A DNA stretch of 32,763 bases, taken from NCBI GenBank assembly GCA_009702045.1, contig WLIV01000037.1, positions 1 through 32,763 on the forward strand, written 5' to 3'. How positions within the stretch are numbered: position 1 is the stretch's first letter; every line of letters starts with the position of its first letter. This DNA comes from Actinomycetota bacterium (GTDB taxonomy: Bacteria; Actinomycetota; Acidimicrobiia; Acidimicrobiales; Ilumatobacteraceae). Both the position numbers and the translations under genes were made by a program. A model generated the notes under the pieces. That model searched no databases. It had not been told where the DNA came from and worked only from the letters and a program-made list of their open reading frames with translations. Positions 1,248 to 20,702 of this stretch are shown here, piece by piece.

Positions 1248-1263
1248 TCTAACGCTTGCGTCA
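1248..1263 (+). promoter_or_regulatory. Operator-like element, copy 1 (upstream of crotonase)
   Basis: Reads TCTAACGCTTGCGTCA, ending 49 bases before the crotonase ATG. A -10-like TATCTA (1266-1271) follows after two bases, which would give a 5' UTR of about 35 bases. It is one of eight copies of TCTAAC-N6-CGTCA in the window; its first 15 bases are identical to copy 7. Confidence 0.7.
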
Positions 1264-1312
1264 CTTATCTAGTACGTTCACAGCAGCACGCCAGGCCGAG
1301 GGGGAGTCCGTC

Positions 1313-2215
1313 ATGTCCGACTACAAGTTCCTACAGTACGAGACACACGATGATGGGGCCATCGTGCGCATCCTGCTCGACCGGCCGGGTGCGCGCAACG
1401 CCCAGAACCGCGGGCTGCTCGTCGAGCTCGACGAGGCGTTCATGCGCGCCGAGGCCGACGACACCTGCCGGGTGGTCATCCTCGGTGGCACTGGCACGAT
1501 GTTCTCCTCGGGGCACGACATGGGCTCCAAGGACGCAATGGACGACTACGCCAACCATCCGTCGATGAAGATCAATGGCGGCACGCGGCAGGGTGCCGAG
1601 AAGTTGATGCTGCAGGAGTGGCACTACTACTTCCAGAACACGCTGCGTTGGCGCAACCTGCGCAAGATCACGATCGCACAGGTGCACGGTCCGGTGTACG
1701 CCGCCGGTCTGATGTTGATGTGGTCGTGCGACCTGATCATCGGCGCCGACGACGTCGTGTTTGCCGACGTGGTGGGCACCCGGCTGGGAATGTGCGGGCT
1801 CGAGTACTTCGCCCACCCGTGGGAGTTCGGTGCCCGCAAGACCAAGGAACTGCTGCTCACCGGCGACAGCATCGACGTCCACGAGGCACACAGCCTGGGC
1901 ATGGTGTCGAAAGTCTTCCCGCGTGCCGAGCTGGAGACCAAGACGCTCGACTTCGCCCGCCGCATCGCCACGCTGCCCACCGCGACCGCCTTGATGATCA
2001 AGGAGTCGGTGAACCAGACGCAGGACAACCAGGGGTTCTTCAACAGCCTGCAGGCCTGCTTCACGTTGCACCAGCTGAACCACTCGCACTGGGCCGTGGT
2101 CCACGAGGACGGCTTCCCGGCAGCGCGACCTGAGGACGGCATCACTGCCTGGAAGGACGCACTTCCGGTCGTGCCTGCCGAGAAGACCACCGTCCGAGCA
2201 ACCACACCGTCCTGA
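1313..2215 (+). CDS. Enoyl-CoA hydratase/isomerase (crotonase) family protein
   Basis: 300 residues, slightly longer than a standard crotonase (about 260). The fold is recognised from RPGARNAQ (24-31), the first oxyanion-hole segment MFSSGHDMG (63-71), the second one HGPVYAAG (125-132), the SCDLIIGADDVVFAD stretch, and KTKELLLTGDSIDVHEAHSLGMVSKV (split around 177-201), where the family has its 'GL V' motif. The usual pair of catalytic glutamates is not obvious: the first position is near FADVV and the second near GLEYF, so the reaction could be hydration, isomerisation or hydrolysis of a CoA thioester. The ATG at 1313 is preceded by GGGGAG at a good distance; the frame is open a little further upstream without such a signal. 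It is the first gene of a crotonase, P450 and acyl-CoA ligase operon and sits directly behind operator copy 1. Confidence 0.9.
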   Translation: MSDYKFLQYETHDDGAIVRILLDRPGARNAQNRGLLVELDEAFMRAEADDTCRVVILGGTGTMFSSGHDMGSKDAMDDYANHPSMKINGGTRQGAEKLMLQEWHYYFQNTLRWRNLRKITIAQVHGPVYAAGLMLMWSCDLIIGADDVVFADVVGTRLGMCGLEYFAHPWEFGARKTKELLLTGDSIDVHEAHSLGMVSKVFPRAELETKTLDFARRIATLPTATALMIKESVNQTQDNQGFFNSLQACFTLHQLNHSHWAVVHEDGFPAARPEDGITAWKDALPVVPAEKTTVRATTPS

Positions 2216-2258
2216 CCACATTCGACACGACTCACCACACGAAGATTTGGGGAACACC

Positions 2259-3425
2259 ATGACTGACATTTTCAGCATGACCGGGGACATCGATCCCGTC
2301 GCTGCGGCACACCCGCAACCACTGATGAAGATGATGCGTGATGCCGCGCCGATCATCGATATGGGTCCGGAGGCAATGGTCCTGGTCGGGGGTGACGAGG
2401 ACATCCGCTTCGTGCTCGGGCACCCGGAGATCTTCTCGTCAGGTATCGACGCGGTGAACATCGGGCAGATCCGCCCGCTCATCCCGCTGCAGATCGACCC
2501 GCCGCGGCACAAGAACTTCCGCAAGCTGCTCGACCCGATCTTTGCTCCGAAGCAGATCGCGCTCCTCGAGCCCGCCACCCGTGCCTTGGTCCGCGAGCTC
2601 CTCGTCGGGCTGCCGGAGAAGAACGGGTGCAACTTCCACACCGAGATGGCCGAACGTCTGCCGACGATTGTGTTCCTGCAATTGCTCGGGCTCCCGGTCT
2701 CGCGTGCCGCGGAGTTCATCGCACTGAAGAACGGAATCCTGCGCCCGCCCACGCACTCCATTGAGGCACGCAACGCAGCCACCGCCGCGACGGGTCAGAA
2801 GATCTACGCCGTGCTGCAGGAAGTCATCGACGAGCGCGCCGTCGAGCCGAAGGAAGACTTCATCTCGATGTTCCTCGCTGCGGAGGTCGATGGCCAGCGG
2901 CTCACGCAGGAAGACGTGCTCGACATCGGGTATCTGTTCTTCCTCGCTGGTCTCGACACCGTCACGGCATCGCTGGACTGCATGATTGCCTTCCTCGCCG
3001 ACCACCCAGAGCACCGCCAGCAGATCGTTGACGATCCGTCGCTGATCCCCCACGCAGTGGAGGAGCTCCTGCGCTGGGAGTCGCCCGTGCAGGGCGTCGT
3101 GCGCATCACCACGCAGGAGACCGAGGTGTCCGGTTGCCCGATCGCCGCCAACCGTGTCGTGTCCGTGATGCTCGGTTCGGCCAACACCGACGAGCGCACT
3201 TGGGATGGGGCCGACGAGATTCGCTTCGACCGCGAGGCGAACAAGCACATCGCCTTCGGTGGCGGCGTGCACCGCTGCCTCGGATCGCACCTCGCCCGCA
3301 TGGAGCTGAGGGTGGCGATGGAGGAGTGGCACGCGGCGATCCCGAACTACAGCCTGGTTGAGGGCAACGTGCTGCTGTACTCGCAGGGCTTGCGCGCCAT
3401 CGACAACCTCGAACTGGTGTGGTGA
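2259..3425 (+). CDS. Cytochrome P450 monooxygenase
   Basis: 388 residues, the usual length for a soluble bacterial P450. The I-helix oxygen-activation motif AGLDT is at 230-234, the K-helix ExxR is E269-R272 (EELLRW), and the haem loop FGGGVHRCLG holds the proximal ligand Cys340. QIDPPRHKNFRKLL (78-91) is the C-helix region that contacts haem propionates. The ATG at 2259 is preceded by GGGGA five bases upstream; a TTG twelve bases earlier is less likely. It lies 43 bases after the crotonase and overlaps the acyl-CoA ligase by four bases, so the three are co-transcribed. No ferredoxin or reductase is adjacent; the nearest ferredoxin is at 30249. The substrate is unknown; the neighbouring CoA genes suggest a lipid, terpenoid or aromatic acid. 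Confidence 0.95.
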   Translation: MTDIFSMTGDIDPVAAAHPQPLMKMMRDAAPIIDMGPEAMVLVGGDEDIRFVLGHPEIFSSGIDAVNIGQIRPLIPLQIDPPRHKNFRKLLDPIFAPKQIALLEPATRALVRELLVGLPEKNGCNFHTEMAERLPTIVFLQLLGLPVSRAAEFIALKNGILRPPTHSIEARNAATAATGQKIYAVLQEVIDERAVEPKEDFISMFLAAEVDGQRLTQEDVLDIGYLFFLAGLDTVTASLDCMIAFLADHPEHRQQIVDDPSLIPHAVEELLRWESPVQGVVRITTQETEVSGCPIAANRVVSVMLGSANTDERTWDGADEIRFDREANKHIAFGGGVHRCLGSHLARMELRVAMEEWHAAIPNYSLVEGNVLLYSQGLRAIDNLELVW

Positions 3426-5065
3426 ACCGGCAGGAACCGGTTTTGCCGCCATTCGAGCCGACGGCGCCGGCGCTCATTGAGCACGTCGCCCGGCACTACG
3501 GCGACCACGCGCTGGCGGTGCTCGGCGACGCCAGGCTCACCTATGCGGACGCCCATGCCAGATCTGCGCTGATGGCCAAGGCGCTCCTCGCGTCCGGCGT
3601 CGGCAAGGGAACACGAGTGGGTCTCCTTGCTCCGAACGGGCCCGACTGGATCATCGCCTGGCTGGCGGTCGCGCGCATCGGCGCCATCGCCACCCTGCTG
3701 AACACGTACCACAAGGCTGCCGAACTGGGGCACGTGCTGCGGCACGCCGATGTGCAGGTGCTGCTGGCTGCCGACGCGCACCTCGGAGCCGACCACCTGG
3801 CGCGGCTTGAGGCGGCGGTGCCTGACCTTGCGGCGCAACCCCACGGTGCGATTCGCAGCACGAGCCATCCCTCTCTGCGCTCGGTCTGGACATGGGGCGG
3901 CGCCCACACTCGCCCCTGGGCCGGGCACCGTGACGATCTTCTGGCGATCGCGGCAGCGGTGCCCGATGAGTTGCTTGCCGCAGCGGAGCGCGAGGTGACG
4001 CCGGCGGACGAGATGATGATCATCTACACGTCGGGCAGCACGTCCGCCCCGAAAGGTGTCGTGCACGGTCACGGGCCCGCCATCCGCCACGCGTACAACC
4101 TGGCGACGCTGAGGGCACTGGCGGCGGACGACGTGCTGTACGGCTCGATGCCGCTGTTCTGGGTGGGCGGCGTGGGCTACACCTTCATGGCGGCGATGAT
4201 GGTGGGCGCGACGGTGGTGTACGAGGACCGCTTCGAGCCGGAGGCCACGCTGCGGTTGCTCGAACGCGAGCACGTGACACAGATCCTCGGCTGGCCGCAC
4301 CTCGCCAAGGCGCTGGCCGACCATCCCACCTGCGGTGAGCGCGACCTGTCCGCCCTGCGCTTCCCGGTGCTGAACGGCGCCAATCAGCCAGCCGGCCTGG
4401 CGGCCTCCACGCTCGGCTCTCTGGGAATGACTGAAACCTTCGGTCCGCACACCTATGGCGCGCGCCCGGAAGACCCGACGGACATACCCGGCTCGTTCGG
4501 TCGCCCGGTGCCGGGCGTCGAGCACAAGATCGTCGATGCGATCACGGGCGAGGACCTACCGCCGGGCAACTCCGGTCAGATCTGCGTGCGCGGCTACTCG
4601 CTGATGCTCGGCTTCTACAAGGTGGAGCGCAGCCAGGTGTTCACCGCTGACGGCTGGTACCGCACGGGTGATGCCGGCTGGTTCGACGAGCACGGGCACC
4701 TGCATTTCGTTGGCCGTCTGGGGGATGCGATCAAGACCTCGGGGATGAACGTCACCCCCAGAGATGTGGAAATCGCGCTCGAGGAACTGCCAGAGGTGGT
4801 GGCCGCGTTCGTCACCGGCACTCCCTCCGAGCGGGGTGAGGACGTCGTCGCCGGTGTCGTCATCCGACCCGGTGCGAGCGCGGACGCAGCGTCATTACGC
4901 GCTGCGGTCAAGGAACGTATCGCCAGCTACAAGGTGCCTCGGCACATCACCCTGTTCACCAGCCAGGCCGAATTGCCGATGCTCGACTCGGGCAAGATCG
5001 ACCGACGCCGGGTGAACGAGGCGATCCGCGCTGACTACGAGCCGCACCTCCACGCCGGCGGATGA
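3422..5065 (+). CDS. AMP-forming acyl-CoA synthetase (ligase)
   Basis: About 547 residues, an ANL-superfamily enzyme that adenylates a carboxylic acid and transfers the acyl group to CoA. The ATP-binding loop is YTSGSTSAPKG (202-212); the A5 motif GMTETFG is at 335-341; the hinge region carries YRTGD (413-417) followed by GRLGDAIKTSGMNV; and the C-terminal catalytic lysine is K525 in LDSGKIDRR. The GTG at 3422 overlaps the P450 stop codon as GTGA, a typical coupled start; a GTG one codon earlier is possible. As the last gene of the crotonase-P450 operon it probably activates the acid, before or after hydroxylation. The specificity (fatty, aromatic or terpenoid acid) cannot be read from the motifs. 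Confidence 0.92.
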   Translation: MNRQEPVLPPFEPTAPALIEHVARHYGDHALAVLGDARLTYADAHARSALMAKALLASGVGKGTRVGLLAPNGPDWIIAWLAVARIGAIATLLNTYHKAAELGHVLRHADVQVLLAADAHLGADHLARLEAAVPDLAAQPHGAIRSTSHPSLRSVWTWGGAHTRPWAGHRDDLLAIAAAVPDELLAAAEREVTPADEMMIIYTSGSTSAPKGVVHGHGPAIRHAYNLATLRALAADDVLYGSMPLFWVGGVGYTFMAAMMVGATVVYEDRFEPEATLRLLEREHVTQILGWPHLAKALADHPTCGERDLSALRFPVLNGANQPAGLAASTLGSLGMTETFGPHTYGARPEDPTDIPGSFGRPVPGVEHKIVDAITGEDLPPGNSGQICVRGYSLMLGFYKVERSQVFTADGWYRTGDAGWFDEHGHLHFVGRLGDAIKTSGMNVTPRDVEIALEELPEVVAAFVTGTPSERGEDVVAGVVIRPGASADAASLRAAVKERIASYKVPRHITLFTSQAELPMLDSGKIDRRRVNEAIRADYEPHLHAGG

Positions 5066-5111
5066 TCGGTCCGCCGCCGCTCATCGACAAGGTTCGCAAG
5101 ATCCACTGTTG

Positions 5112-5127
5112 TCTAACACTCACGTCA
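5112..5127 (+). promoter_or_regulatory. Operator-like element, copy 2 (upstream of amidohydrolase 1)
   Basis: Reads TCTAACACTCACGTCA and ends 51 bases before the ATG of the next gene. A good -10 hexamer, TATAGT (5130-5135), follows after two bases. The element thus overlaps the position of the -35 box (TTGTCT at 5109-5114). This is the clearest promoter of the set. Confidence 0.75.
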
Positions 5128-5178
5128 TGTATAGTCATCTGAAGAAGTGACCCGATCACCAAAGGGAAGAGAGTCGCC

Positions 5179-6384
5179 ATGCCCTCCAGAAGCCTCGGTT
5201 ATCCCGTGTTCGACGTGGACAACCACATGTACGAGACACCCGCCGCTCTGACCAAGCACATCGACCCGAAGTTCAAGGGCGTCATCGACTACGTCGATGT
5301 CGAGGGCCGCACCAAGATCTCAGTCAAGGGTGAGATCAGCGAGTACATCCCGAACCCGACGTTCGAGAAGGTCGCGGCTCCCGGTGCTCAGGAGGAGTAC
5401 TTCCGCAATGGCAATCCGGATGGCAAGACGCGCCGCGAGATTCTCGGCAAGGCGATGGTCGCCCCGCCAGCGTTCCGCGAGCCCGGACCGCGTATCGAGC
5501 TGATGGACCAGCAGGGCATCGATCGTGCGCTGATGTGGCCCACGCTGGCCAGTCTGGTGGAGGAGCGTCTGCGCGACGACCCCGAGGCCATCCACGCAAT
5601 CGTCACCGCTCTCAACCGCTGGATGTACGAACAGTGGACCTTCAATTTCGAGGACCGCATCTTCCCGACGCCGGTGATCACGCTGCCGATTCTCGACAAG
5701 GCGATCGCCGAGCTGGAATGGGTGCTCGAGCGCGGCGCCAAGGTCATCCTCGTTCGCCCCGCCCCGGTACCCGGCCTCAATGGCATGCGTTCATTCGCGC
5801 TGCCCGAGTTCGACCCCTTCTGGGAGCGCGTCCAGGCGGCCGACATCCTCGTGGGCATGCACGCCAGCGACAGTGGCTACCAGCGGTACCAGAACGACTG
5901 GGAGGGTGCCACGGGGGAGATGAAGCCGTTCGTGGGCCAGTCCGGTTTCGGTGCGATCGTCAGCCACATGAGCCGGCCGGTCGTCGACACGGTGGCTTCG
6001 GCCATCGGCCACGGCATGTGCTCGCGTTTCCCGAAGTTGAAACTCGCACTCGTGGAGAACGGCTCGGGCTGGGTGCGTGGACTGTTGGAGACCATGGAAT
6101 ACGCACACAGCATGGCGCCCAACTCGTTCGACGAGAACCCGGTGGAGGTGTTCAAGCGGAACATCTACGTGCACCCGTTCCACGAAGAGAACCCCAAGGC
6201 GCTCGCAGAGCTGGTCGGCATCGATCACGTGCTGTTCGGCTCGGACTACCCGCACCCGGAGGGCCTCGCAGACCCGATCACGTTCGTCGACGACCTGGTC
6301 GGTATCGACAGCGTGGGAGTCGCCAAGATCATGGGCGGCAACCTCGCTCGCCTGATGAACGTAGAGAACACCGCACTGGTGTGA
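5179..6384 (+). CDS. Amidohydrolase-2 family metal-dependent enzyme (paralogue 1)
   Basis: 401 residues with a TIM-barrel metallo-hydrolase fold of the amidohydrolase-2 type (relatives: ACMSD, gamma-resorcylate decarboxylase, 4-oxalomesaconate hydratase). Strand 1 gives the metal motif DVDNH (D12, D14, H16) with E19 following; a second metal-type histidine is H228 in VGMHASD; the end-of-barrel aspartate is D356 in FGSDYPHPEG; ALVENGSGW is the typical strand-6 segment. The start is set by AAGGGAAGAGAG just before the ATG. It is followed 72 bases later by paralogue 2, probably in one operon behind operator copy 2. Family members hydrolyse, hydrate or decarboxylate small organic acids, so the exact reaction is open. 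The neighbouring CoA genes make a step on an aromatic or branched acid plausible (inference). Confidence 0.85.
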   Translation: MPSRSLGYPVFDVDNHMYETPAALTKHIDPKFKGVIDYVDVEGRTKISVKGEISEYIPNPTFEKVAAPGAQEEYFRNGNPDGKTRREILGKAMVAPPAFREPGPRIELMDQQGIDRALMWPTLASLVEERLRDDPEAIHAIVTALNRWMYEQWTFNFEDRIFPTPVITLPILDKAIAELEWVLERGAKVILVRPAPVPGLNGMRSFALPEFDPFWERVQAADILVGMHASDSGYQRYQNDWEGATGEMKPFVGQSGFGAIVSHMSRPVVDTVASAIGHGMCSRFPKLKLALVENGSGWVRGLLETMEYAHSMAPNSFDENPVEVFKRNIYVHPFHEENPKALAELVGIDHVLFGSDYPHPEGLADPITFVDDLVGIDSVGVAKIMGGNLARLMNVENTALV

Positions 6385-6456: not shown

Positions 6457-7626
6457 ATGTCTCTGCTTCCGAGCGACCTACGGGTCATCGATTGCGATAC
6501 CCATCTCACCGAACCGCACGACCTGTGGGTGAAGCGCGCACCGGCGGCGTTCAAGGATCGGGTGCCGCGCGTGGTGGACATCGACGGCCGAGCATCGTGG
6601 GTCGTCGGTGACAAGGTCCTCGGCTTCGCCGGTGGCGGCGGGGTGATCGACACCGAAGGTGCCAAGCACTCGTTTGGGGAATCGATGATGGTGTGGGGGA
6701 TCGATCGGATCCATCGCGGGGCGTGGGACCCCGAGGCGCGCATCGAGGTAATGAACGACTCTGGCGTGCACGCCCAGGTCCTGTTCCCCAACGCCGTCGG
6801 CTTTGGCGAAGGACTGTCGTCCAGCGAGATCGACCCCGTGCTACGCCTGCTGTCCATCCAGATCTACAACGACGCGATGGCCGAGATGCAGTCCGATTCG
6901 GACAACCGGTTGTTGCCGATGCCGATCATGCCCGTGTGGGACATCGATCTGTGCGTCCGCGAGGCCACTCGCGTCGCCGACCTCGGTCTGCGCGGCGTCA
7001 ACATGACCTCGGACGCCGCCGACGTGGGCTCTCCTGACCTGTCGGAGCCGGCGTGGGACCCGCTGTGGCAAGTGTGCGTCGAGCGCAGTCTTCCGGTGCA
7101 CTTCCACATCGGGGCCAGCCTCACGGCGATGAACTTCTTCGGCAAGTACTTCTGGCAGTCGCAGCGGGAGAACACGAAGGCCGCGATCGGCGGGTCGATG
7201 CTGTTCCTCGGCAACGCCCGGGTGATCATCAACACCATCCTCAGCGGGATGTTCGACCGCAACCCTGGTCTGAAGATGGTGTCCGTCGAGAGCGGAATCG
7301 GCTGGATCCCGTTCATCCTCGAGACCATCGACTACGAGATGGACGAGAACGCCCCCGCGGATCTGGCCCAGCTGCAGAAGATGCCGTCCCAGTACTTCAA
7401 AGACCACTGGTACTCGACGTTCTGGTTCGAGCAGGCGCAGGGCAAGCTGCAGGCGCTCGTCGATGCCGTGGGCGACGACAACATTCTGTTCGAGACCGAC
7501 TTCCCGCACCCCACGTGTCTGTATCCCAAGCCGCTGGACACCATCGCCGAAAAGATGTCGACGTTGACCGAGTCGTCGCGGCGCAAGATCCTCGGCGACA
7601 ACGCGGTCAAGCTGTACCGCTTGTAG
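6457..7626 (+). CDS. Amidohydrolase-2 family metal-dependent enzyme (paralogue 2)
   Basis: 389 residues, the same fold as the gene before it but clearly diverged. The first metal motif is IDCDTHLTEP (D12, D14, H16), the barrel histidines are H215 and H217 in VHFHIGAS, the strand-6 segment is VESGIGW, and the terminal metal or catalytic aspartate is D348 in ETDFPHPT. GGGGG six bases before the ATG supports the start. It probably shares a transcript with paralogue 1. The last 20 bases overlap, tail to tail, the end of the minus-strand alpha/beta hydrolase. Hydrolase, hydratase and decarboxylase functions are all known in the family; the sequence does not decide between them. Confidence 0.85.
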   Translation: MSLLPSDLRVIDCDTHLTEPHDLWVKRAPAAFKDRVPRVVDIDGRASWVVGDKVLGFAGGGGVIDTEGAKHSFGESMMVWGIDRIHRGAWDPEARIEVMNDSGVHAQVLFPNAVGFGEGLSSSEIDPVLRLLSIQIYNDAMAEMQSDSDNRLLPMPIMPVWDIDLCVREATRVADLGLRGVNMTSDAADVGSPDLSEPAWDPLWQVCVERSLPVHFHIGASLTAMNFFGKYFWQSQRENTKAAIGGSMLFLGNARVIINTILSGMFDRNPGLKMVSVESGIGWIPFILETIDYEMDENAPADLAQLQKMPSQYFKDHWYSTFWFEQAQGKLQALVDAVGDDNILFETDFPHPTCLYPKPLDTIAEKMSTLTESSRRKILGDNAVKLYRL

Positions 7627-8470
7627 CCCCTTGTGCCCACTCGACGAGGGTGGGCACCAGCAGGGGCCAGCGCACGAACAACCCAGCGCCGTCCGTCATC
7701 CGCTCGACCCACTCACGGTCGCCCCAGAGCGGCTCGATCAGGCGCGCAGTAGGGATGAGTGTTGCCAGCCGCTCGGTCGTGGCCCGTGTGTGGTGGACAT
7801 CGCTGCTGCCGCTGTTGAAGATCAATGTCGGCACGGTCATCGCTCGCACCTGCTCATCCGGCAGACCTGGGATCAACTGGTCGGGGCGCGGGTAGTAGGC
7901 GAGCATCCAGGTCTCCAGCTTGGCGATGAACGCCTTCGGGTCCTGCCCGAGGAGCCGCTCGCGGTTCTGCGGGTTGCGCTCGATGACCTCCTGCCACTCT
8001 GGCAACGCAGCCACGGCCTCCATACCGTGCTGCCATGCGGCCATGATCGAACCCCCGCAGTAGTGCACACCGAGCGACATCAGGCCGAACGGCCCGCCGC
8101 TTACCCACCACAGGCCCAGGCCGGCGGCCACGTCGGGGTGCCGGGCGGCGGCGAGCAATGACACCCGGGCACCTCCCGAGCCGCCGATGATCACCGCCGG
8201 AGCGAGATCCAGATGGCGCAGCAGTCCCGCTAACGCGTCGGCTTGTGTCGCCGACTCGGAGTCGCCGTCGAAGGTGATGTCGGACTCTCCGCAGTTCGGT
8301 CGGTCCCAGATGACCACCTGCTTGCCACTTGCGGCGAGTGCTTCGGCCATCTCGCGAATGCCGGCGTAGTCCTTGCTGAAGCGGCCTCCGGGTGTGATGA
8401 TCCAGGGCTGCCCTGCATCGCCGATCACGTCGTACGCGATACCGAGCCCGTTCACCTGTGCGATCGGCAT
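7607..8470 (-). CDS. Alpha/beta-fold hydrolase
   Basis: 287 residues. The nucleophile elbow is IGGSGGAR with Ser98; the oxyanion region ITPGGR (25-30) and the VVIWDRPNCGES stretch (52-63) are typical of the fold. The acid is probably D224 in NSGSSDVHHT. The usual C-terminal histidine is not where expected: the corresponding loop reads LWGDREW (248-254); H226 or H227, right after the acid, are the nearest histidines. The start is set by AGGAGGG a few bases before the ATG; the frame is open further upstream but without a ribosome-binding site, and that stretch carries the promoter. It is divergent from the CoA transferase and faces operator copies 3 and 4. Role: hydrolysis of an ester, lactone or C-C bond, substrate unknown. 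Confidence 0.88.
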   Translation of the reverse strand: MPIAQVNGLGIAYDVIGDAGQPWIITPGGRFSKDYAGIREMAEALAASGKQVVIWDRPNCGESDITFDGDSESATQADALAGLLRHLDLAPAVIIGGSGGARVSLLAAARHPDVAAGLGLWWVSGGPFGLMSLGVHYCGGSIMAAWQHGMEAVAALPEWQEVIERNPQNRERLLGQDPKAFIAKLETWMLAYYPRPDQLIPGLPDEQVRAMTVPTLIFNSGSSDVHHTRATTERLATLIPTARLIEPLWGDREWVERMTDGAGLFVRWPLLVPTLVEWAQGATSGTA

Positions 8471-8509: not shown

Positions 8510-8525
8510 TGACGTGAATGTTAGA
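8510..8525 (-). promoter_or_regulatory. Operator-like element, copy 3 (hydrolase promoter)
   Basis: On the minus strand it reads TCTAACATTCACGTCA, followed after two bases by TAACCG (8507-8502) in the -10 position. It lies 39 bases before the alpha/beta hydrolase ATG and points toward it. Confidence 0.7.
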
Positions 8526-8577: not shown

Positions 8578-8593
8578 TGACGTATGTGTTAGA
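8578..8593 (-). promoter_or_regulatory. Operator-like element, copy 4 (hydrolase/CoA-transferase gap)
   Basis: On the minus strand it reads TCTAACACATACGTCA, followed after two bases by TATCTT (8575-8570). It has the same orientation as copy 3, 68 bases away, and points away from the CoA transferase, whose ATG is 40 bases to its right. It could repress the CoA transferase promoter or act with copy 3 on the hydrolase. Confidence 0.7.
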
Positions 8594-11395: not shown

Positions 11396-13488
11396 GACGT
11401 CACCGCCCCATCGACACCGATCGACTCAGTCGGTTCGTCCGGCGCGGGCGGGGCCGACTGCTGCCGTGCCGCTAGCCACCGGGAGGTTCGGCCGCGCCAG
11501 AACTCCACCGCACCTTCCGGGTGGCGAGCGAACTGCAGGGTGCCCAGTCCGAACAAGATCAGGCGCCATTTCGGCGAGATGGGGAAGAACCCCGGGACAC
11601 GCTTCGGACTGCGCAGGATCCAGCCGAAGATCGTTCCGCGCAGAATCAGCGGATCGAAGATCGAGAACGCAGCACCCGCCAGAGCGGCGCCCTCGATGGT
11701 GCGCGCGCCGAGCGAGACCACGAGGACGAGCCAGAACAGCGACGAGACCGGCGAGAAGTTGCTGCCGTAGTTCACGTTCTTCTGGTGGATGCTCAGCAAG
11801 GCCCCACCCAGGGCGGCGATGGCCGCCGACACGGCGAAGGCCACGACTCGCGCTCGAGCAGGGGAGATTCCGATCGACTGTGCGGCGACCTCGCTGCCGC
11901 GGATTGCCCGCAAGGTTCTGCCGATCGTGCCGCCACGGATCTGCACGACGACGATCGAGACGATGATGAAGACGACGACGGCGAGTACCAAGAACGCCCG
12001 GTCGTCGGCGAAGTCCCACGGCCCGAGCACGGGTCGCGGTACCCGCGTGCCTTGCATCAACGAGGTGTTGCCACCGCCGACCCATGAGAACTTGATCGCG
12101 ACGGCATCGAAGAAGAACGCGAAGGCCAAGGTGGCGACCGCAGTCCAGATGCCGCCGAGGCGAAGCACGGGCAACGACAGCACCGCGCCGACGGCCGCAG
12201 CGATCACCGCAGCGATAGGGGCCGCCACGAGGACCGACATGCCGTGCAACGTGGCGAGTTGGTAGACACCGAAGCCACCGATGGCGGCGAACGTGCCCTG
12301 GCAGAGCGAGATCTGGCCGGCCAGGCCGGTGATCATCGTGACCGAGAGGTAGATCGTGGCCATGATGACTGCCTGAGTGACCAGGAACATCCAGGACGCA
12401 TCTGCGCGGAAGTAGACGATGGTCGCGACGGTGCCGAGGACACCGACGGTGAACACCCTGCCGATCAGATGTGACCTCGCCGAGCGGGTGGCCAGCGCGA
12501 GCGAAGAGATCGGCGGGTCGACTCCGGAGAGCGGATCGCTCACCTCACGCGAACGTCGGATCGCCGGCCATAGCACCAGCACCCCGAAAAGGACGACGAA
12601 CGGTACGGCCGGAGTGAGGTTCTCCTGGAACGGGCGCAACCATGGGTTCGAATCCACCCACCTGGGCAGGAACGTTCCCAGTAGTGCGATCACCATGCCC
12701 AGCCCGAGACCGCCGGCCAACGCGCGGGGGAGGCTGACCAGCCGACCGAGGATGGCGGCGGCGATCGCCACCACCACCAGGTTGAAGAAGTCGGGTGCTG
12801 CGAGGGTATTGAATCGGGGAGCGATGAGCACTCCCGCCAGGCCGGCGAAGGTGCTCGACAAGGCCCAACTGACGGCTGAGACTCGATCAGAGCGGATCCC
12901 GTTCAACTCCGTCATCCGCGGGCTCTCCACCACCGCCCGCATTTGCAGACCGATTGCCGTGAAGCGGAACAGTGCCGCCAAGCACAGCATGGCGATGACT
13001 GCGACGCCGATGGTGGTGAGTTCGTCGCGACTGAAGGGGTAGACGCCAAATGGGTCGTAGAACACGCCGGAGCCGTTGGGCACGATGCCGGCAGGGGTTT
13101 GCCCGACGACGCCCTTGAAGTTGGTGATCAGCTCGAAAATGTTCGGCAGCGCCAGCGAGATGCCGATGGTGACGACGAGCTTGGCGACCGACGTTCCCGT
13201 GCGCAAGTAGCGGAACACCAACCGTTCGAGCGTGAGCCCGATCGCCGGTGCGAGTACGAAAACACTCAACACCAGAGCGGGGATGATCGACCATCCCCAC
13301 TCAGTGTGAGCCTTGTAATACATAGCGGCAGAGACGTACGCCTGTGCGCCGAAGGCGAGGTTGAACACGCCCGACGTCTTGTAGGTGAGTACGAAGCCGA
13401 GTGCAACGAGGGCGTAGACGGTTCCCGGTGGCGTTCCCTGTAACAGGGCACGCAGGAAGTCGGCACCGACGCCGGTGGCGAGTGTCAT
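11392..13488 (-). CDS. Fused LivH-LivM-type ABC permease
   Basis: 698 residues, about the sum of separate LivH (about 290) and LivM (about 320) proteins. Residues about 1-305 match LivH: GTVYALVALGFVLTYKTSGV, then NLAFGAQAYVSAA, and further on RAVVESPRMTELNGIRSDRV. After a hydrophilic linker (about 312-345) the second half, about 346-640, matches LivM: TMITGLAGQISLCQGTFAAI, LPVLRLGGIWTAVATLAFAF and GRTLRAIRGSEVAAQSIGI. A soluble tail of about 50 residues, ending EPTESIGVDGAVTS, follows. Both halves keep the EAA-like loops that contact the ATPases, so one chain can replace the permease heterodimer. The ATG at 13488 lies 51 bases after the binding-protein gene. Such fusions occur in some actinobacteria; the order SBP, HM, G, F is a compact Liv operon. 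Confidence 0.92.
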   Translation of the reverse strand: MTLATGVGADFLRALLQGTPPGTVYALVALGFVLTYKTSGVFNLAFGAQAYVSAAMYYKAHTEWGWSIIPALVLSVFVLAPAIGLTLERLVFRYLRTGTSVAKLVVTIGISLALPNIFELITNFKGVVGQTPAGIVPNGSGVFYDPFGVYPFSRDELTTIGVAVIAMLCLAALFRFTAIGLQMRAVVESPRMTELNGIRSDRVSAVSWALSSTFAGLAGVLIAPRFNTLAAPDFFNLVVVAIAAAILGRLVSLPRALAGGLGLGMVIALLGTFLPRWVDSNPWLRPFQENLTPAVPFVVLFGVLVLWPAIRRSREVSDPLSGVDPPISSLALATRSARSHLIGRVFTVGVLGTVATIVYFRADASWMFLVTQAVIMATIYLSVTMITGLAGQISLCQGTFAAIGGFGVYQLATLHGMSVLVAAPIAAVIAAAVGAVLSLPVLRLGGIWTAVATLAFAFFFDAVAIKFSWVGGGNTSLMQGTRVPRPVLGPWDFADDRAFLVLAVVVFIIVSIVVVQIRGGTIGRTLRAIRGSEVAAQSIGISPARARVVAFAVSAAIAALGGALLSIHQKNVNYGSNFSPVSSLFWLVLVVSLGARTIEGAALAGAAFSIFDPLILRGTIFGWILRSPKRVPGFFPISPKWRLILFGLGTLQFARHPEGAVEFWRGRTSRWLAARQQSAPPAPDEPTESIGVDGAVTS

Positions 13489-13539
13489 GACACCAGTCCT
13501 CGGCTCAGCATCGCCCGCTACCGCTGACGTGGCGGTGTG

Positions 13540-14934
13540 TCACTTGAAGGCCTTGAACTCCGGGTCGGACCACTCTCCGGACGCCCAGCACATCCACGGT
13601 GTTGCCGGCGGTGCGACGGTGACGAACTTGCCCTTGGTGACACGCACGAGTGTGACGCACTCGCCCTGCTTGTCGGCCGGCCGGGTGGACTCCGTGTAGG
13701 GAGCGTGGTCGGTGCTCCAGTTGATCGGCTTGAGCAAACCGCCGGCAGTGTCGGCAGTCAACGCGTTCGTTGCATCCGTCACCTTGGTGCGGTCAAACTC
13801 GGGCCCGGCTGCAAGCAGTCCTTCGAAGGCGATCGACGCGTTGATCCAACCGACCATCGCCAACTCGCTCGGAGTCTTGCCCGCCTTCTCCATCCACGTC
13901 AGGAACTCGCCGAGCGTGGTGCCCGCCGTGTCGGCCTCGAAGGGCAGGAAACCGACGCTGACGAAGTCGCCCTCGAACAGAGGGTCGGCATCGGTCACGA
14001 ACTTCTGGTTGTACGTGTTCGGGTGGTACAGCGTGACGTTGTCCATACCTTGGCGATGCAGTTCCTGTGCCAATGTCTTCATCGCATTGAGGTCCATGCA
14101 GGTGGCGATGAAGTCAACGTTGGCCGCCTTCATCGCGGTGACCTCCGGGCCGATGCCGTTCGGCAGGCCGAACGCGAGGTTGTCGTTGAAGTAGGCGATG
14201 TCGGCCCCGCCCTCGGGGAACTTCGTCACCGAGTTCTTGTAGCCAGCCACGCACGTCTTGGAGTTCTCAGTGACTCCGTACCCGAGCGCGGCCACGTGCT
14301 TGGCCCCGGCCGACTTGGCGGCATAGGGCATCAGATGGCTCGTGCAGCCCCCGCTGCACATCGTCGCGATGCTGGGGAAGATGTGCAGGCGGTTCGCCGA
14401 GTCGGCAGGCTGGATGCCCCAGGTGTAGGTGGGGATACCGGCACTGTCCAGATCGCCCCAACCGCTCGACAGCAGCGTTGCGTTGAACGACCCGAACGAC
14501 TTGTTGTTCGAGACGATGTCCAGCGCCCGCGCCTGGTTGTTGGCGAGCTCGTCATCGATCTCCTGGTTGACGACGAGCTGGCGGCCGTAGATGCCACCCT
14601 CCGAGTTGCGGAACGCGAAGTACGCCTTGATGCCGTCGAGATAGCAGTCGAGGATGCACGTGCCGAGCGGGTTGTTCGAACGCGTGCCGATGACGGCATA
14701 GCCGATCTCCTTGTCCGACACCCCAGGCACGCCGGTGATCGGCTTGAACACGTCACGGTTGCTGGGTGCAGCCGTCGTCGACGGTTCCGAACCACCGGTG
14801 TCCGGTGTCGGTACGCCGGTGGTGGTCACAGCCGCAGCCGTGGTCGTCGAGCTGCTGTCGGAGTTACTGCATGCCGGAGCAAGACACGAGAGCACTGCGA
14901 GCGCGGACGCGCACTTGATCAGATTCGATTTCAC
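13540..14934 (-). CDS. Liv-type ABC transporter substrate-binding lipoprotein
   Basis: About 464 residues. The N-terminus is a lipoprotein signal: MKSNLIK, a hydrophobic stretch and a lipobox-like APAC with Cys22, then a Ser/Thr-rich linker to about residue 60. The rest is a type I periplasmic-binding fold of the leucine/amide (Peripla_BP_6) class: DKEIGYAVIGTRSN, AYFAFRNSEGGIYGRQL, then segments on either side of the hinge. Several cysteines (in LGTCILDCYLDG, MCSGGCTSH and elsewhere) suggest disulfides. The GTG at 14934 is preferred because GGGGGA sits just before it and it gives a clean signal peptide; a TTG four codons earlier is the alternative. It heads the importer operon and lies behind operator copy 5, so uptake appears co-regulated with the catabolic genes. 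The ligand is unknown. Confidence 0.9.
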   Translation of the reverse strand: MKSNLIKCASALAVLSCLAPACSNSDSSSTTTAAAVTTTGVPTPDTGGSEPSTTAAPSNRDVFKPITGVPGVSDKEIGYAVIGTRSNNPLGTCILDCYLDGIKAYFAFRNSEGGIYGRQLVVNQEIDDELANNQARALDIVSNNKSFGSFNATLLSSGWGDLDSAGIPTYTWGIQPADSANRLHIFPSIATMCSGGCTSHLMPYAAKSAGAKHVAALGYGVTENSKTCVAGYKNSVTKFPEGGADIAYFNDNLAFGLPNGIGPEVTAMKAANVDFIATCMDLNAMKTLAQELHRQGMDNVTLYHPNTYNQKFVTDADPLFEGDFVSVGFLPFEADTAGTTLGEFLTWMEKAGKTPSELAMVGWINASIAFEGLLAAGPEFDRTKVTDATNALTADTAGGLLKPINWSTDHAPYTESTRPADKQGECVTLVRVTKGKFVTVAPPATPWMCWASGEWSDPEFKAFK

Positions 14935-14956
14935 GAGATCCCCCAACGTGATGTGT

Positions 14957-14981: not shown

Positions 14982-14997
14982 TGACACGGATGTTAGT
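14982..14997 (-). promoter_or_regulatory. Operator-like element, copy 5 (ABC importer operon)
   Basis: On the minus strand it reads ACTAACATCCGTGTCA, the most diverged copy (first base and the CG of CGTCA differ). TATTGC follows one base later. It points to the substrate-binding protein gene and ends 47 bases before its GTG. Confidence 0.6.
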
Positions 14998-15007: not shown

Positions 15008-15029
15008 CAGCTGATGTGAACATCAGCTG
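15008..15029 (-). terminator. Stem-loop at the end of amidohydrolase 3
   Basis: CAGCTGATG-TGAA-CATCAGCTG, a perfect nine-pair stem with a four-base loop. It includes the stop codon of the amidohydrolase at 15023-15025. There is no clear T-run, so termination is possible but not certain. It separates that gene from the promoter of the importer operon. Confidence 0.5.
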
Positions 15030-16309
15030 CGCTGAGCGATCCGCTCGGACAACGTCAGCGTGGTGACGATGCCAGAGTCCTGGAATTTGCCGGTGCCGTG
15101 GCTCACGAGCGCCGTGTCCACGTCGGTGGCCTGAGCGCGCAGCGCCCCCACCGTCGCCTGCTCGCGCGGGATGTGAGCGAACGGGTCGTAGGTGAAGTTC
15201 CGCATCGCGTTCAGGTGGGTGATGCGGTTGATGTCCGCATCGGGCAGGCCACCCAACCACTTCATCGCCATCTCGGGCGAGTTCGGCCAGGTGCAGTCGG
15301 AGTGCGGGTAGTCGCACTCCCAGTGGATGAAGTCCATGTTCAGGTGGTGGCGGACTTCGATCCCGACGGCGTCGTCGATGAAGCAGGTCAAGACGTTCTC
15401 GTTGAACACCTGGCTCGGCAACTTGTCGCCGAAGTCCTGGTTCGTCCACGCACGGTGGTGCGAGTACACGTAGTCAATACGTTCGAGGAAGTAGGGCACC
15501 CATCCGATCCCGCCCTCGGAGAGCGCAACCCTGAGTGCGGGGAACTTCTTGAACATCGGTGACCACACGAGATCCGCCGCGCACTGCACGATGTTCATCG
15601 GCTGCAGCGTGATCATTGCGTCGATCGGCGCATCTGCGGAGGTCATCACGGTCTGCGACGACGAGCCGATGTGCAGGCACAGGACGGTGCCGGTATCGAC
15701 GCACGCCTGAAGGAAGGGGTCCCAGTGGTCGGAGTGGTAGCTCGGCAGGCCGATCTTCGTCGGGTTCTCGGAGAACGTGACGGCATGGCAGCCCTTGGCG
15801 GCCACTCGCCGTACCTCGGCGGCCATCAACTGCGGGTCCCAGATCGGTGTGATCGCCAGCGGGATCATGCGCCCCGGGTAGGTTCCGCACCACTCCTCGA
15901 TGTGCCAGTCGTTATACGCCCGCAGCACTTCCAACGAAAGGTCTTTGTCGGCGGCTGTGTAGAACAGCGCCCCGGCGAAGCCAGCGAGACTTGGGAAGTT
16001 CATCGAACCCAGGACGCCGTTGACATTCATGTCACGAATTCGCTCGTGGATGTCGAAGCAGCCGGGGCGCATCTGGGAGAACGCGAGCGGATCGAGACCG
16101 TACTCCTCGGGAACTCTGCCGGCGACAGCGTTGAGGCCCACGTTCGGCATCGCCTTGCCCTCGAACATCCACACTTCGCGTCCGTTCTCCAAGGTCACGA
16201 TGCGTGGCGCATACTCGGCGGCGCGCTTTGAGAGGCGTCCCTCGAACAGTGTGGGCGGCTCGACGACATGGTCGTCGACGCTTACCAGGATCAGATCCTC
16301 AGCCTGCAT
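15023..16309 (-). CDS. Amidohydrolase-2 family metal-dependent enzyme (paralogue 3)
   Basis: 428 residues, the longest of three paralogues in the window. The N-terminal metal motif is SVDDHVVEP (D12, H14, E17), the mid-barrel histidine is in LCLHIGSSS, the strand-6 segment reads LSEGGIGW, and the terminal aspartate is D333 in ECDYPHSD. The fold is the same as in the genes at 5179 and 6457, but the length and the extended C-terminus (about 60 residues after the barrel) differ, so they are not recent duplicates. AGGGGGA before the ATG supports the start. It is divergent from the tandem TetR regulator and shares a 103-base promoter region with it, containing operator copy 6. Reaction unknown: hydrolysis, hydration or decarboxylation. 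Confidence 0.87.
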   Translation of the reverse strand: MQAEDLILVSVDDHVVEPPTLFEGRLSKRAAEYAPRIVTLENGREVWMFEGKAMPNVGLNAVAGRVPEEYGLDPLAFSQMRPGCFDIHERIRDMNVNGVLGSMNFPSLAGFAGALFYTAADKDLSLEVLRAYNDWHIEEWCGTYPGRMIPLAITPIWDPQLMAAEVRRVAAKGCHAVTFSENPTKIGLPSYHSDHWDPFLQACVDTGTVLCLHIGSSSQTVMTSADAPIDAMITLQPMNIVQCAADLVWSPMFKKFPALRVALSEGGIGWVPYFLERIDYVYSHHRAWTNQDFGDKLPSQVFNENVLTCFIDDAVGIEVRHHLNMDFIHWECDYPHSDCTWPNSPEMAMKWLGGLPDADINRITHLNAMRNFTYDPFAHIPREQATVGALRAQATDVDTALVSHGTGKFQDSGIVTTLTLSERIAQRS

Positions 16310-16340
16310 TCGCAGTCCCCCTTCGTTGGCATCGCCTACA

Positions 16341-16356
16341 TGACGACGGTGTTAGA
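16341..16356 (-). promoter_or_regulatory. Operator-like element, copy 6 (between regulator and amidohydrolase 3)
   Basis: On the minus strand it reads TCTAACACCGTCGTCA, with TAGGCG two bases later. It points to amidohydrolase 3, 31 bases before its ATG, and is 56 bases before the tandem TetR ATG on the other strand. This is the usual place for an autoregulatory site of a divergently transcribed TetR regulator. Confidence 0.7.
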
Positions 16357-16360
16357 TTAG

Positions 16361-16376: not shown

Positions 16377-16412
16377 GCACAAGACGCAACTCAAATCAAT
16401 AGGCTGGCGGCA

Positions 16413-17675: not shown

Positions 17676-17759
17676 CCAGCCAGATGAGCGACCGCTGATC
17701 TCTCGCACAGGGACTCTTGGCCCTGTCGCGCAGTGCCGACGCGACCGCACAATGCCCGG

Positions 17760-18266: not shown

Positions 18267-18277
18267 TGGAGGGAGCG

Positions 18278-18313
18278 ATGTCTAACGCTTGCGTCGCGTA
18301 CCTCCGGCTGTGA
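18278..18313 (+). other. Eleven-codon mini-frame with ribosome-binding site over operator copy 7
   Basis: ATG at 18278, preceded by GGAGGGAG, opens a frame of 11 codons (MSNACVAYLRL) that ends at 18311-18313. It coincides with operator copy 7. It may be chance, a remnant of a lost gene start, or a leader peptide. There is no gene downstream on this strand, since the next gene is convergent. Confidence 0.2.
18281..18296 (+). promoter_or_regulatory. Operator-like element, copy 7 (orphan, between convergent genes)
   Basis: Reads TCTAACGCTTGCGTCG, with TACCTC two bases later. It lies in the 54-base gap between the ends of the ferritin-like gene and the minus-strand acyl-CoA dehydrogenase, so it has no start codon to control except the mini-frame over it. 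The first 15 bases equal copy 1. Confidence 0.5.
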
Positions 18314-18320
18314 GACGGGG

Positions 18321-19505
18321 TCAACCGCGAGGAAGGCCGAGCACCCTCTCGGCGATGATGTTGCGTTGGATCTCCGACGACCCGGCGGAGATGGTGCTGC
18401 CAAAGATGCCGAAGTAGTCCTCGAGGGTGCCGATGCGACGTGATCGCTGCGGCTTGCTCTCCAGTGCGTCCGGACCGCGCATCTCGGCAGCGACGCGAGC
18501 GAGGCGCTGTCGCGAGGCTGACGCGAAGAGCTTCATCAGCGCCTGCTCAGGTGCCGAGCCCCCCTTCACCAACCGGGCGAAGCCGCGATACCCGAGGCAT
18601 CTCACGGCGTGGCTCTCGATGTAGCAGCGAACGACGTCGTCGGCCGCCACGGCGCGCTCCTGCTCCGGCAGCGCTTCCAGGATCGATGGAGCGAGTTCGA
18701 GCATCTGCTGCATGCCCATCTCCATGTCGATGACACTCATCAGCCAGACCATGCCCCGCTCGTGAGCCAGTGAGCCGTTGGCCATCGCCCAACCATCGTT
18801 CAGTTTCCCGACGAGATTCGCCGCCGGCACGACGACATCAGTGAGGAACACCTCGTTCAAATCGGGGTGCTGGGGATGAACGATCTCGTTGAGCGGGCGG
18901 ACGGTGACGCCTGGGGTATCCATCGGCAACAGGATGATCGAGATCCCCTTGTGCTTGGGGACGTCGGGGTCGGTGCGGCAGAACAGGAAACAGAAGTCGG
19001 CGTAGTTCGCGCCGGACGTCCACACCTTCTGGCCGTTGAGCACGAACGTGTCGCCATCGCGGACGGCACGCGTCTTCAGATTGGCGAGGTCGCTGCCGGC
19101 ATCGGGTTCGCTCATGCCCAGGCAGGCGGTGATCTCGCCGTGCAGCAGCGGCATGGCGTAGCGCTTGATCTGGTCGGGCGTGCCGTAGTCCAGCAGCGAT
19201 GGCACGATGATGCCGAGACCCTGCGGGTTGGTGGTGCGCGGCACCCCCGAACGGCTCATCTCCTCGAGGTACACCAGCGTCTCGTGCGCTCCGGCATTAC
19301 GCCCGCCGCGCTCGGGCGGCCAGCCAGGAACCAGCCAGCCGGCGTCGAACAGACGCTTCGTCCAACGCTTGGCCCAGTCGGGGCAGTGCGCGCTGGAGAC
19401 AGCGGGATCAGCGGCCATCTCCTCTGCGGTCGGACGGTTGTCCGCGAGCCAATGGAGAAACTCCTGACGGAACTCCTCAACGGACGCTTCGAAGCGCAGC
19501 TTCAT
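18321..19505 (-). CDS. Acyl-CoA dehydrogenase, subunit A
   Basis: 394 residues, an FAD-dependent acyl-CoA dehydrogenase. The signature CLGMSEPDAGSDLANLKT is followed by FVLNGQKVWTSGANYADFC, and the C-terminus has SSEIQRNIIAERVLGLPRG. The canonical medium-chain catalytic glutamate position in that last motif is an alanine (TISAGSSEIQ), as in many actinobacterial FadE proteins that work in pairs, so the base must come from another site or subunit. The ATG at 19505 overlaps the stop codon of subunit B as ATGA. The pair resembles the heteromeric steroid side-chain dehydrogenases (FadE28/FadE29 type), but the substrate here is not known. Expected reaction: alpha,beta-desaturation of an acyl-CoA. 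Confidence 0.9.
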   Translation of the reverse strand: MKLRFEASVEEFRQEFLHWLADNRPTAEEMAADPAVSSAHCPDWAKRWTKRLFDAGWLVPGWPPERGGRNAGAHETLVYLEEMSRSGVPRTTNPQGLGIIVPSLLDYGTPDQIKRYAMPLLHGEITACLGMSEPDAGSDLANLKTRAVRDGDTFVLNGQKVWTSGANYADFCFLFCRTDPDVPKHKGISIILLPMDTPGVTVRPLNEIVHPQHPDLNEVFLTDVVVPAANLVGKLNDGWAMANGSLAHERGMVWLMSVIDMEMGMQQMLELAPSILEALPEQERAVAADDVVRCYIESHAVRCLGYRGFARLVKGGSAPEQALMKLFASASRQRLARVAAEMRGPDALESKPQRSRRIGTLEDYFGIFGSTISAGSSEIQRNIIAERVLGLPRG

Positions 19506-20611
19506 ACGTTGACCTCCGAGATCAGACCGAGAGCGGCCGCCAGTTGGGAGCGGTGATGGAGGCTGCTGCCACACAGCAGTTCGCCCGCTTTGGCCCGTTT
19601 CAGCCAGAAATGCAGATCGTTCTCCCAGGTGTACCCGATCCCGCCGTGCAACTGCAGGCCGTCCTCGACGAGCAGTCGTTGGCACTCGCCGGCGGTCGCT
19701 TTGGCCATGTGTGAGGCCTCCGCTCGGCGGGGATCGTCCTCGGCGATGGCGACCGCCGCGAAGTAGCCCAAGGCGTTGGCCTTCTCGACCATGAGGTACA
19801 TGTCCGCGAAGCGGTGCTTGAGCGCCTGGAAGGAACCGATCACTCGGTCGTACTGCACGCGAATCTTGGCGTAGTCCAGCGTCAACTCGAAGACCCGCCG
19901 GCAGGCCCCGACGATGTGCAGCGTCATCGCCGTTGTGGCTTGCTGCAACACGCGTTCCAGTGCCTCCTCGACATCTGCGGCGGCGATCACCACGGCCGGC
20001 GCCGCGTCGAAGACGACATCAGCGAGCCCGAGAGTGGGTTCGAGCACGCCCGTCGGTATCACCGTGGCCGCCGAGCGCTCGACGAGATACACGCCGAGCT
20101 GACCCGACGTCCGGTCTCGCGCGACTACGGCGAACGAATCCACCTGGCTGCCGGCAAGCACGGCGTCCTTGCGTCCGGTGATTCGTGTCCCGTCGGCGGT
20201 GACCTCGGCGATGGTGCTGATCGAGTGCAACCCCCAGGACGAACCTTCGGCCACCGCGAGCGAACCAGAGCGGCGCCCTTCGGCGACCTCCGCGAGCAGA
20301 TCGATGCAGTCGAACTCTTCCAAGACGGGCACGAACTGGCTGATCGTTGCCAGCAAGGGGCCCGGTGCGGCGGCGCGGCCCAGCTCCTCTGCGAGGAGCG
20401 CCACTTCCACGAACCCGAGCCCGACCCCACCGGCCTCCTCGCGGATGCCGAGTGCGGGCCAGCCGAGGTCGACGACCTGGCGCCACAGCTCGGCATAGTC
20501 GCTCGTCCCTTCGTGGACCGCGCGCACGAGACTCGGGGGGCATGCCCCGGTCAGCACGGTGCGGATGTTGTCGCGCAACATCTGCTGATCGTCCGAGAGT
20601 TCCAGATCCAT
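19502..20611 (-). CDS. Acyl-CoA dehydrogenase, subunit B
   Basis: 369 residues. N-terminal helical domain with LSDDQQMLRDNIR, then GWPALGIREEAGGVGLGFVE; the middle beta domain is poorly conserved and lacks the usual EPxAGSD signature (it reads VAEGSSWGLHSIS); the C-terminal domain has RVQYDRVIGSFQALKHRFAD and LQLHGGIGYTWENDLHFWLKR, the family's FAD and substrate-site segment. The weak middle domain is common in the partner subunit of heteromeric FadE pairs. GGGAG precedes the ATG. It is the first gene of the pair and is driven from the 128-base gap with the thioesterase, which contains operator copy 8. Confidence 0.9.
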   Translation of the reverse strand: MDLELSDDQQMLRDNIRTVLTGACPPSLVRAVHEGTSDYAELWRQVVDLGWPALGIREEAGGVGLGFVEVALLAEELGRAAAPGPLLATISQFVPVLEEFDCIDLLAEVAEGRRSGSLAVAEGSSWGLHSISTIAEVTADGTRITGRKDAVLAGSQVDSFAVVARDRTSGQLGVYLVERSAATVIPTGVLEPTLGLADVVFDAAPAVVIAAADVEEALERVLQQATTAMTLHIVGACRRVFELTLDYAKIRVQYDRVIGSFQALKHRFADMYLMVEKANALGYFAAVAIAEDDPRRAEASHMAKATAGECQRLLVEDGLQLHGGIGYTWENDLHFWLKRAKAGELLCGSSLHHRSQLAAALGLISEVNV

Positions 20612-20686
20612 TCAACGTCTCCCTGCCGGCGTGCTGCTCAGAGCTTGGATGCCTCCGTTCAGGCACCCAGCGACGACACTGTAACA

Positions 20687-20702
20687 TGACGTGGGCGTTA
20701 GA
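20687..20702 (-). promoter_or_regulatory. Operator-like element, copy 8 (dehydrogenase/thioesterase gap)
   Basis: On the minus strand it reads TCTAACGCCCACGTCA, with TACAGT three bases later (20683-20678). It points to the acyl-CoA dehydrogenase pair, 75 bases before its ATG, and ends 37 bases before the thioesterase ATG on the plus strand. Confidence 0.7.

Follow-up and report, generated by a model that had tools for sequence, protein, structure and literature searches.

Eight copies of a lopsided 16-bp element, TCTAAC-N5-CGTCA in its exact form, lie among catabolic genes on contig WLIV01000037.1 of an actinomycetotal genome (GCA_009702045.1; Acidimicrobiales, Ilumatobacteraceae) and raise the question of which protein reads them and what it controls. 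The window, that is, the whole stretch of 32,763 nucleotides analyzed here, is one whole contig (C31) and makes up 0.9% of the 3.65-Mb genome (G000, 99.45% complete). An original prediction had proposed a single regulator for the genes behind the element; such a regulator is likely, and its co-occurrence with the element now allows it to be named as a fused (double) TetR protein encoded at 16413-17675. We put the probability at roughly three in four (0.76) that the element is the operator of this fused TetR and that the protein is an Mce3R-like repressor of a regulon for the degradation of terpenoid/steroid-like acyl-coenzyme A (acyl-CoA) compounds. Acidimicrobiales would then probably possess an Mce3R-like fused TetR with a compact, lopsided candidate operator and a terpenoid/steroid-like catabolic regulon.

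All eight coordinates and strands given in the original prediction were correct, while its six-base spacer had to be shortened, as TCTAAC-N6-CGTCA has no exact match in the window and TCTAAC-N5-CGTCA has six (Table 1). The eight copies counted there thus comprise these six, the copy at 18281 with one mismatch (CGTCG) and the copy at 14982 with two (ACTAAC...TGTCA). When up to two mismatches were allowed, 11 matches were found in the window against a shuffle mean of 5.81, and 6 of 100 shuffles reached 11; therefore, the degenerate copies alone are no proof. Seven copies, all except 18281, conform to the core CTAAC-R-N5-GTCA, which was found in 50 dinucleotide shuffles of the window with a mean of 0.04 and a maximum of 1. 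To the right of 20.7 kb nothing comparable was detected with a matrix built from seven sites (best score 11.3, compared with 19.3-35.9 for the eight copies), as had been claimed.

The random scatter over the genome that had been named as a sign against a regulon was not seen: the exact element occurs six times in the genome and all six copies lie in the window, for which the chance is about 5e-13, and the reversed-pattern control gave no match genome-wide. With YGTCA allowed (TCTAACRNNNNYGTCA), a single additional copy appeared outside the window, at C56:61510. All seven matches of the extended pattern TCTAACRYNNNCGTCANGTA with zero or one mismatch are inside the window; at two to three mismatches, the matches outside it were at control level. 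The loose core CTAACRNNNNNGTCA has 7 of its 11 genomic matches in the window.

The element had been described as asymmetric. Its lopsidedness was confirmed; in fact, it is an imperfect inverted repeat, with TAAC as the left half and TGAC on the opposite strand as the right half at a fixed distance, and it looks lopsided because one half is altered. The asymmetry consists mainly of one half-site base (A instead of G) together with weaker flanks. Words were counted in the intergenic DNA of 39 loci, namely 43 loci that include the window, some close relatives and many pieces of fragmented metagenome genomes, minus the near-duplicates L103, L104, L198, and L199, which stayed in the placement count given below. 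Words with A in one half and G in the other occurred 84 times (0.37 in shuffles), A/A words 0 times (0.10), and G/G words 15 times (0.57). The count was 84 for TAAC, 83 for CTAAC, and 80 for CTAAC with full flanks, and the spacing was strict: among the values of k from 2 to 12 in CTAAC-Nk-GTCA, k = 6 accounted for 83 occurrences and each of the others for no more than one. A second set was chosen on protein similarity alone and consisted of 29 fused-TetR loci minus L169 (no upstream DNA) and L173 (106 bp), hence 27 with the window excluded; a further fused-TetR copy of G199 on C24 has no locus and stands outside these counts. In the 300 bp upstream of the fused TetR gene in these loci, TAAC-N6-GTCA was found 16 times, once each in 16 loci, TAAC-N6-GTTA was not found, and TGAC-N6-GTCA was found five times in four loci, one of which is the own genome's paralogue.

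The element co-occurs with the fused TetR across genomes. Among 100 relatives, at least three exact words were found only in G000, G009, G063, and G065, all of which hold the fused TetR (the gene is cut by the contig end in G009). G082 and G042 also hold it, with one and none of the exact words, respectively, and with looser copies near the gene in both. A larger test covered 397 genomes of the order, with the pattern TCTAACRNNNNYGTCA and the protein profile run on the identical set; 24 genomes were called positive for the fused TetR at a profile expectation value (E) of at most 1e-60. At least three exact TCTAACRNNNNYGTCA copies were present in 18 of the 24 positive genomes compared with 9 of the 373 others (Fisher test, 8.7e-20), and at least four in 16 of 24 compared with 2 of 373 (8.1e-21), neither value being corrected for kinship. 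The two negative genomes with at least four copies (G121 and G302) belong to the same genera as positive ones. When four genomes known to have contributed proteins to the search profile (G000, G063, G065, and G082) were left out, 14 of 20 positive genomes had at least three copies and 12 of 20 at least four; G405 is apparently the source of profile row L082, and further profile rows possibly lie among the 397 genomes. In total, the 24 positive genomes hold 110 copies, while the reversed control sums to 2.

These results bear on whether the element could instead be the operator of some other regulator, such as the single TetR encoded at 24321-24941 (TetR2) or one elsewhere, with the fused TetR as a mere target. 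The fused TetR gene does carry the element as any target would, and the genome is rich in TetR-like stretches, with 23 match rows, of which one gene accounts for two. However, the copies track the fused TetR across the 397 genomes, the element also precedes genes of homologues that share only about 31% identity and have partly different neighbours, and a lopsided word suits a protein with two different DNA-binding domains. Among the homologue loci L081-L087 (31-43% identity), all seven have the element within 200 bp of the gene. We therefore regard control by another protein as improbable and retain the fused TetR as the most probable reader of the element.

Gene calling used a codon model derived from the window itself, and gene starts are predicted. 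As the original prediction had stated, all window copies are intergenic and seven lie in promoter regions, 32-110 bp before called starts. The copy at 18281 is flanked by the convergent gene ends of 17760-18266 (+) and 18321-19505 (-) and is no obvious promoter copy. Neither a location mostly within genes nor an absence from orthologous promoters, two further signs that had been named as speaking against a regulon, was observed in the 43 loci. Here, 92 of 97 copies are intergenic (20-base margin) at a coding fraction of 0.942, and 91 of these 92 have a called gene start no more than 400 bp downstream, with divergent genes flanking 63 of them. The divergent arrangement of amh3, the word, and the fused TetR gene recurs in 13 loci including the window, some of them close relatives, and at other promoters the word stands before genes orthologous or homologous to echA, P450a, amh1, CoAT3, the ligase, and FadE-type genes, with many copies at orthologous promoters in other families. 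In G065, both fused TetR copies are in apparent operons, with the element further upstream.

A part of the promoter itself, such as an alternative sigma -35/-10-like word or a sigma-54-like -24/-12 pair, could also be found before genes without being a repressor operator. The sigma-54-like pair has a similar spacing, and all seven promoter copies in the window point towards the downstream gene. In contrast, no match to the sigma-54 DNA-binding domain PF04552 was found in the genome at E of at most 0.001, although 4 of 14 control genomes gave one, and the sigma-54 reading was therefore rejected. Orientation across loci is also at odds with a promoter word, as 13 intergenic single-direction sites point towards the gene and 15 away from it. 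Orientation tends to be constant for a given promoter and differs between promoters: the word at the amh3 promoter is forward at every intergenic site, it is reversed at seven close P450a homologues (51-68%), and it points towards the TetR gene in L083-L087 and away from it in 14 of the 16 copies of the protein-chosen loci. An operator therefore fits and a promoter element does not, and a word of fixed polarity was rejected. Altogether, we consider a promoter part very improbable, even more so than a different regulator, and continue with the operator.

Classical TetR repressors such as KstR, KstR2, FasR, and EthR act as homodimers on palindromes. The fused TetR shares their DNA-binding family, and several of them act in lipid catabolism; unlike them, it combines two different domains in one chain with a lopsided candidate operator, and the KstR model scored it at 36 bits, below the cut-off of 280. 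Alignments with twelve homologues (31-46% identity) extend over most of the length of the fused TetR. All 13 aligned sequences have both TetR DNA-binding domains (PF00440), and residues of the two recognition regions (CSR..FYQYF and HG.FY..F) and of an N-terminal arm (RR.PF) are invariant. An AlphaFold2 model made with eight sequences reached a mean predicted local distance difference test (pLDDT) score of 74.7 and a predicted template modelling (pTM) score of 0.73. Its top Foldseek match is the Mce3R-DNA complex 9b7y (E 3.6e-8, TM score 0.56-0.60), the only one with more than 220 aligned columns among the 50 matches listed. VIA-align likewise placed 9b7y first, with a Z score of 22.1 over 354 residues across both domains, compared with 13.9 for the next match.

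According to PMC11667970, Mce3R (Rv1963c) of Mycobacterium tuberculosis has two non-identical helix-turn-helix domains in one chain and reads a 25-bp asymmetric operator; this 2024 report presented it as the first fused TetR with a solved structure. As judged from the predicted model, the build of our fused TetR, with two TetR units in one chain, is like that of Mce3R. The non-palindromic operator has its counterpart here in a candidate operator, and autoregulation, divergence from a target, and a lipid/steroid-linked regulon, as PMC11667970 and PMC2277422 describe them for Mce3R, are predicted here. Two 25-bp Mce3R sites lie 53 bp apart, that is, 78 bp from start to start (PMC11667970); L083-L086, among the most distant homologues, carry two like-oriented words upstream of the TetR gene at a distance of 74-77 bp, and G042 has one pair 38 bp apart. 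In the window, the 8510 and 8578 copies are 68 bp apart in identical orientation. There are also differences. Identity in the structural alignments is 15-17%, and only the DNA-binding stretches match in phmmer, the C-terminal domain with the first domain of Mce3R at 25.8 bits and the N-terminal domain with the second at a chance level of 7.8 bits. The putative targets comprise P450, PF04909, CoA-transferase, and Liv importer genes, and no mce-type Pfam family was found among 20 scanned window genes, those controlled by the element included. The word is also compact (15-16 bp), and the two operators are compared here by size and layout; the Mce3R operator has been described at a few related promoters. 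No paper on a TetR operator or regulon with a cytochrome P450 in Acidimicrobiia was found in the open-access library searched.

An assignment of the half-sites to the two domains was sought through palindromes upstream of eight single-domain TetR loci (the C-terminal-domain relatives L043-L046, L048, and L049, plus L010 and L011) and was rejected, as none was convincing. Behind the fused TetR gene, 17760-18266 encodes a 168-amino-acid protein without a Pfam match (the longer frame 17733-18266 was scanned); the end of this gene is present at the contig edge in G009.

The fused TetR might bind the sites and activate the catabolic genes, or act in both ways. Activation would be consistent with sites just upstream of start codons, and some TetR proteins do activate, FasR being named an activator in NCBIfam. 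However, the site shared by amh3 and the regulator gene lies near both of their divergent starts, a layout typical of repressors, and Mce3R, the nearest characterised relative in build, represses mce3 and itself according to PMC2277422. Activation thus appears unlikely, though somewhat less so than the involvement of another regulator, and repression is preferred.

Several findings weigh against a repressor-operator pair as proposed here. The fit of 9b7y has a root-mean-square deviation of 5.6 (VIA-align) or 9.8 (Foldseek), with a model of middling confidence. Among the seven window copies at promoters, four are followed by N-GTA, which could begin a -10 box and would suit a promoter part or activation, and the copy at 18281 does not fit the pattern of operators at promoters. 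Genome-wide, the loose core is no more frequent than its control (11 compared with 13); what sets it apart is only that it clusters in the window. Five of the 97 copies are intragenic (L109, two in L181, L191, and L193), one of those in L181, at the TetR gene, probably through a start-calling error. The 39-locus counts are inflated, as many of these loci were fetched for holding the element; the 27-locus count is less biased, and there 11 loci, the paralogue of the own genome among them, have no element in the 300 bp upstream. Six of the 24 positive genomes (G196, G251, G270, G286, G347, and G394) hold zero to two exact copies, and distant double TetRs may read another sequence. In the near-identical G009, 15-16 of 16 site positions are kept and flanks are 89-98% identical, so that conservation of the sites does not exceed that of their surroundings; the genome is too close to be informative, and the footprint comparison was rejected. 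Finally, homology is the sole basis of the substrate assignment given below.

In the mechanism that we propose, the two non-identical helix-turn-helix domains would form a built-in heterodimer and read the TAAC and TGAC halves at their fixed spacing. Bound some 30-110 bp before start codons of the window, often in divergent promoters, the fused TetR would repress its own gene, the copy at 16341 being the likely autoregulation site. The operons that it would also repress serve uptake (Liv-type importer), CoA activation (ligase and CoA-transferase), oxygenation (P450 and PF04909 proteins), and beta-oxidation (FadE pair and EchA); its release would be brought about by an intermediate of the pathway, probably the free acid or an acyl-CoA. 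A sharply defined, lopsided candidate operator in dozens of promoters makes the domain-to-half assignment and the evolution of fused repressors directly testable. Most Acidimicrobiales are uncultivated, and the element offers a handle for finding probable terpenoid/steroid degradation genes in this order.

We infer that the regulon serves one substrate class, and its gene products point to the kind of compound. Three of them had been labelled amidohydrolases, which is misleading in that these PF04909 proteins are, as judged from their homologues, probably dinuclear oxygenases. The nearest solved relative of Amh3 is DitZ (E 5.5e-110 over residues 1-402 of 428), followed by PtmU3 (E 1.5e-38); that of Amh1 is a putative TIM-barrel hydrolase (4dzi), followed by PtmU3 and DitZ. 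The dit genes act on diterpenoid resin acids, and we take both DitZ and PtmU3 to have a diterpenoid role. The likeness to the dit system and PtmU3 lies in the homology of amh3, whereas organism and regulator differ; no paper on ditZ itself was found in the open-access library searched. PtmU3 is a dinuclear monooxygenase of PF04909, a family that also holds carboxylases, hydratases, and hydrolases (PMC10811679). Each of the two FadE proteins matches a different chain of 4x28, and likewise of 6wy8/6wy9. These structures are presumably heteromeric steroid-type dehydrogenases. P450a matches a CYP125 ancestor, vitamin D hydroxylases, and many others, and this mixed list therefore says little about the substrate. 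Taken together, the homologies suggest a bulky polycyclic terpenoid or steroid-like acid.

Table 1. Candidate operators, candidate regulator, and putative target genes in the window; gene labels are from Pfam, NCBIfam, and PDB comparisons.
Feature	Position	Strand	Remarks
Candidate operator, exact	1248..1263	+	50 bp before echA; retained in G009
echA, enoyl-CoA hydratase family (NF006140)	1313..2215	+	Pfam/NCBIfam
P450a, cytochrome P450	2259..3425	+	Family comparison
AMP-forming acyl-CoA ligase	3419..5065	+	Family comparison
Candidate operator, exact	5112..5127	+	Before the amh1/amh2 pair; one change in G009
amh1, PF04909 family	5179..6384 (alternative start 5206)	+	Family comparison
amh2, PF04909 family	6457..7626	+	Family comparison
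abh, alpha/beta hydrolase	7607..8470	-	Family comparison
Candidate operator, exact	8510..8525	-	Divergent promoter abh/CoAT3; one change in G009
Candidate operator, exact	8578..8593	-	Divergent promoter abh/CoAT3; retained in G009
CoAT3, CoA-transferase family III	8634..9851	+	Family comparison
Liv-type ATP-binding cassette (ABC) importer	9879..14946	-	Four genes
Liv importer ATPases	9879-10625, 10622-11395	-	
Liv importer fused permease	11392-13488	-	
Liv importer substrate-binding protein	13540-14946 or 14934	-	
Candidate operator, two mismatches	14982..14997	-	Before the Liv-type importer operon; retained in G009
amh3, PF04909 family	15023..16309	-	Nearest solved relative DitZ, then PtmU3
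Candidate operator, exact	16341..16356	-	Divergent promoter amh3/fused TetR
Candidate regulator, fused (double) TetR, 420 amino acids	16413..17675	+	Two PF00440 stretches, co-occurrence, fold
Degenerate copy (CGTCG)	18281..18296	+	Convergent intergenic region; one change in G009
fadE_a, acyl-CoA dehydrogenase	18321-19505	-	Paired with fadE_b
fadE_b, acyl-CoA dehydrogenase	19502-20611	-	Paired with fadE_a
Candidate operator, exact	20687..20702	-	Divergent promoter fadE_b/tesB; one change in G009
tesB, acyl-CoA thioesterase II type	20740..21576	+	Family comparison

A second catabolic module at 24321-32097 comprises TetR2, thiolase-like and amidase-like genes, P450b, and two genes resembling short-chain dehydrogenases/reductases (SDR), all labelled by eye; no copy of the element was found in it.

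A second fused TetR is encoded in the same genome on C56 (39671-40996; L008:544-1884, minus strand). It is 32% identical to the protein encoded at 16413-17675, and the site upstream of its gene, TCTGACACGGACGTCAGA (TCTGAC-N6-GTCAGA), has the same spacing with perfect 6-bp arms. The pattern CTGACRNNNNYGTCA, which represents TGAC/GTCA words, has 33 matches in the genome against 7 in the reversed control, with 7 on C14 and 9 on C56; four places were counted on both strands. It is conceivable, though we hold it to be rather less than an even chance, that built-in TetR heterodimers are widespread and use broken palindromes. The single-base change from TGAC to TAAC in one half-site would then keep this terpenoid regulon apart from a palindromic TGAC/GTCA network governed by related TetR proteins of the same cell, and paired sites about seven helical turns apart would be bridged by homodimers of the fused TetR.

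Outside the window, the loose core has four matches (C14, C53, C54, and C56), a number not above the control of 13. The match on C54 lies inside an open frame, and the other three (C14:8968-8982, C53:157676-157690, and C56:61510-61524) lie between called genes and may be further targets or chance occurrences. The L083 contig, which is labelled Bifidobacterium breve, carries a fused TetR with a double element like those of Acidimicrobiia and probably comes from a mislabelled metagenome bin.

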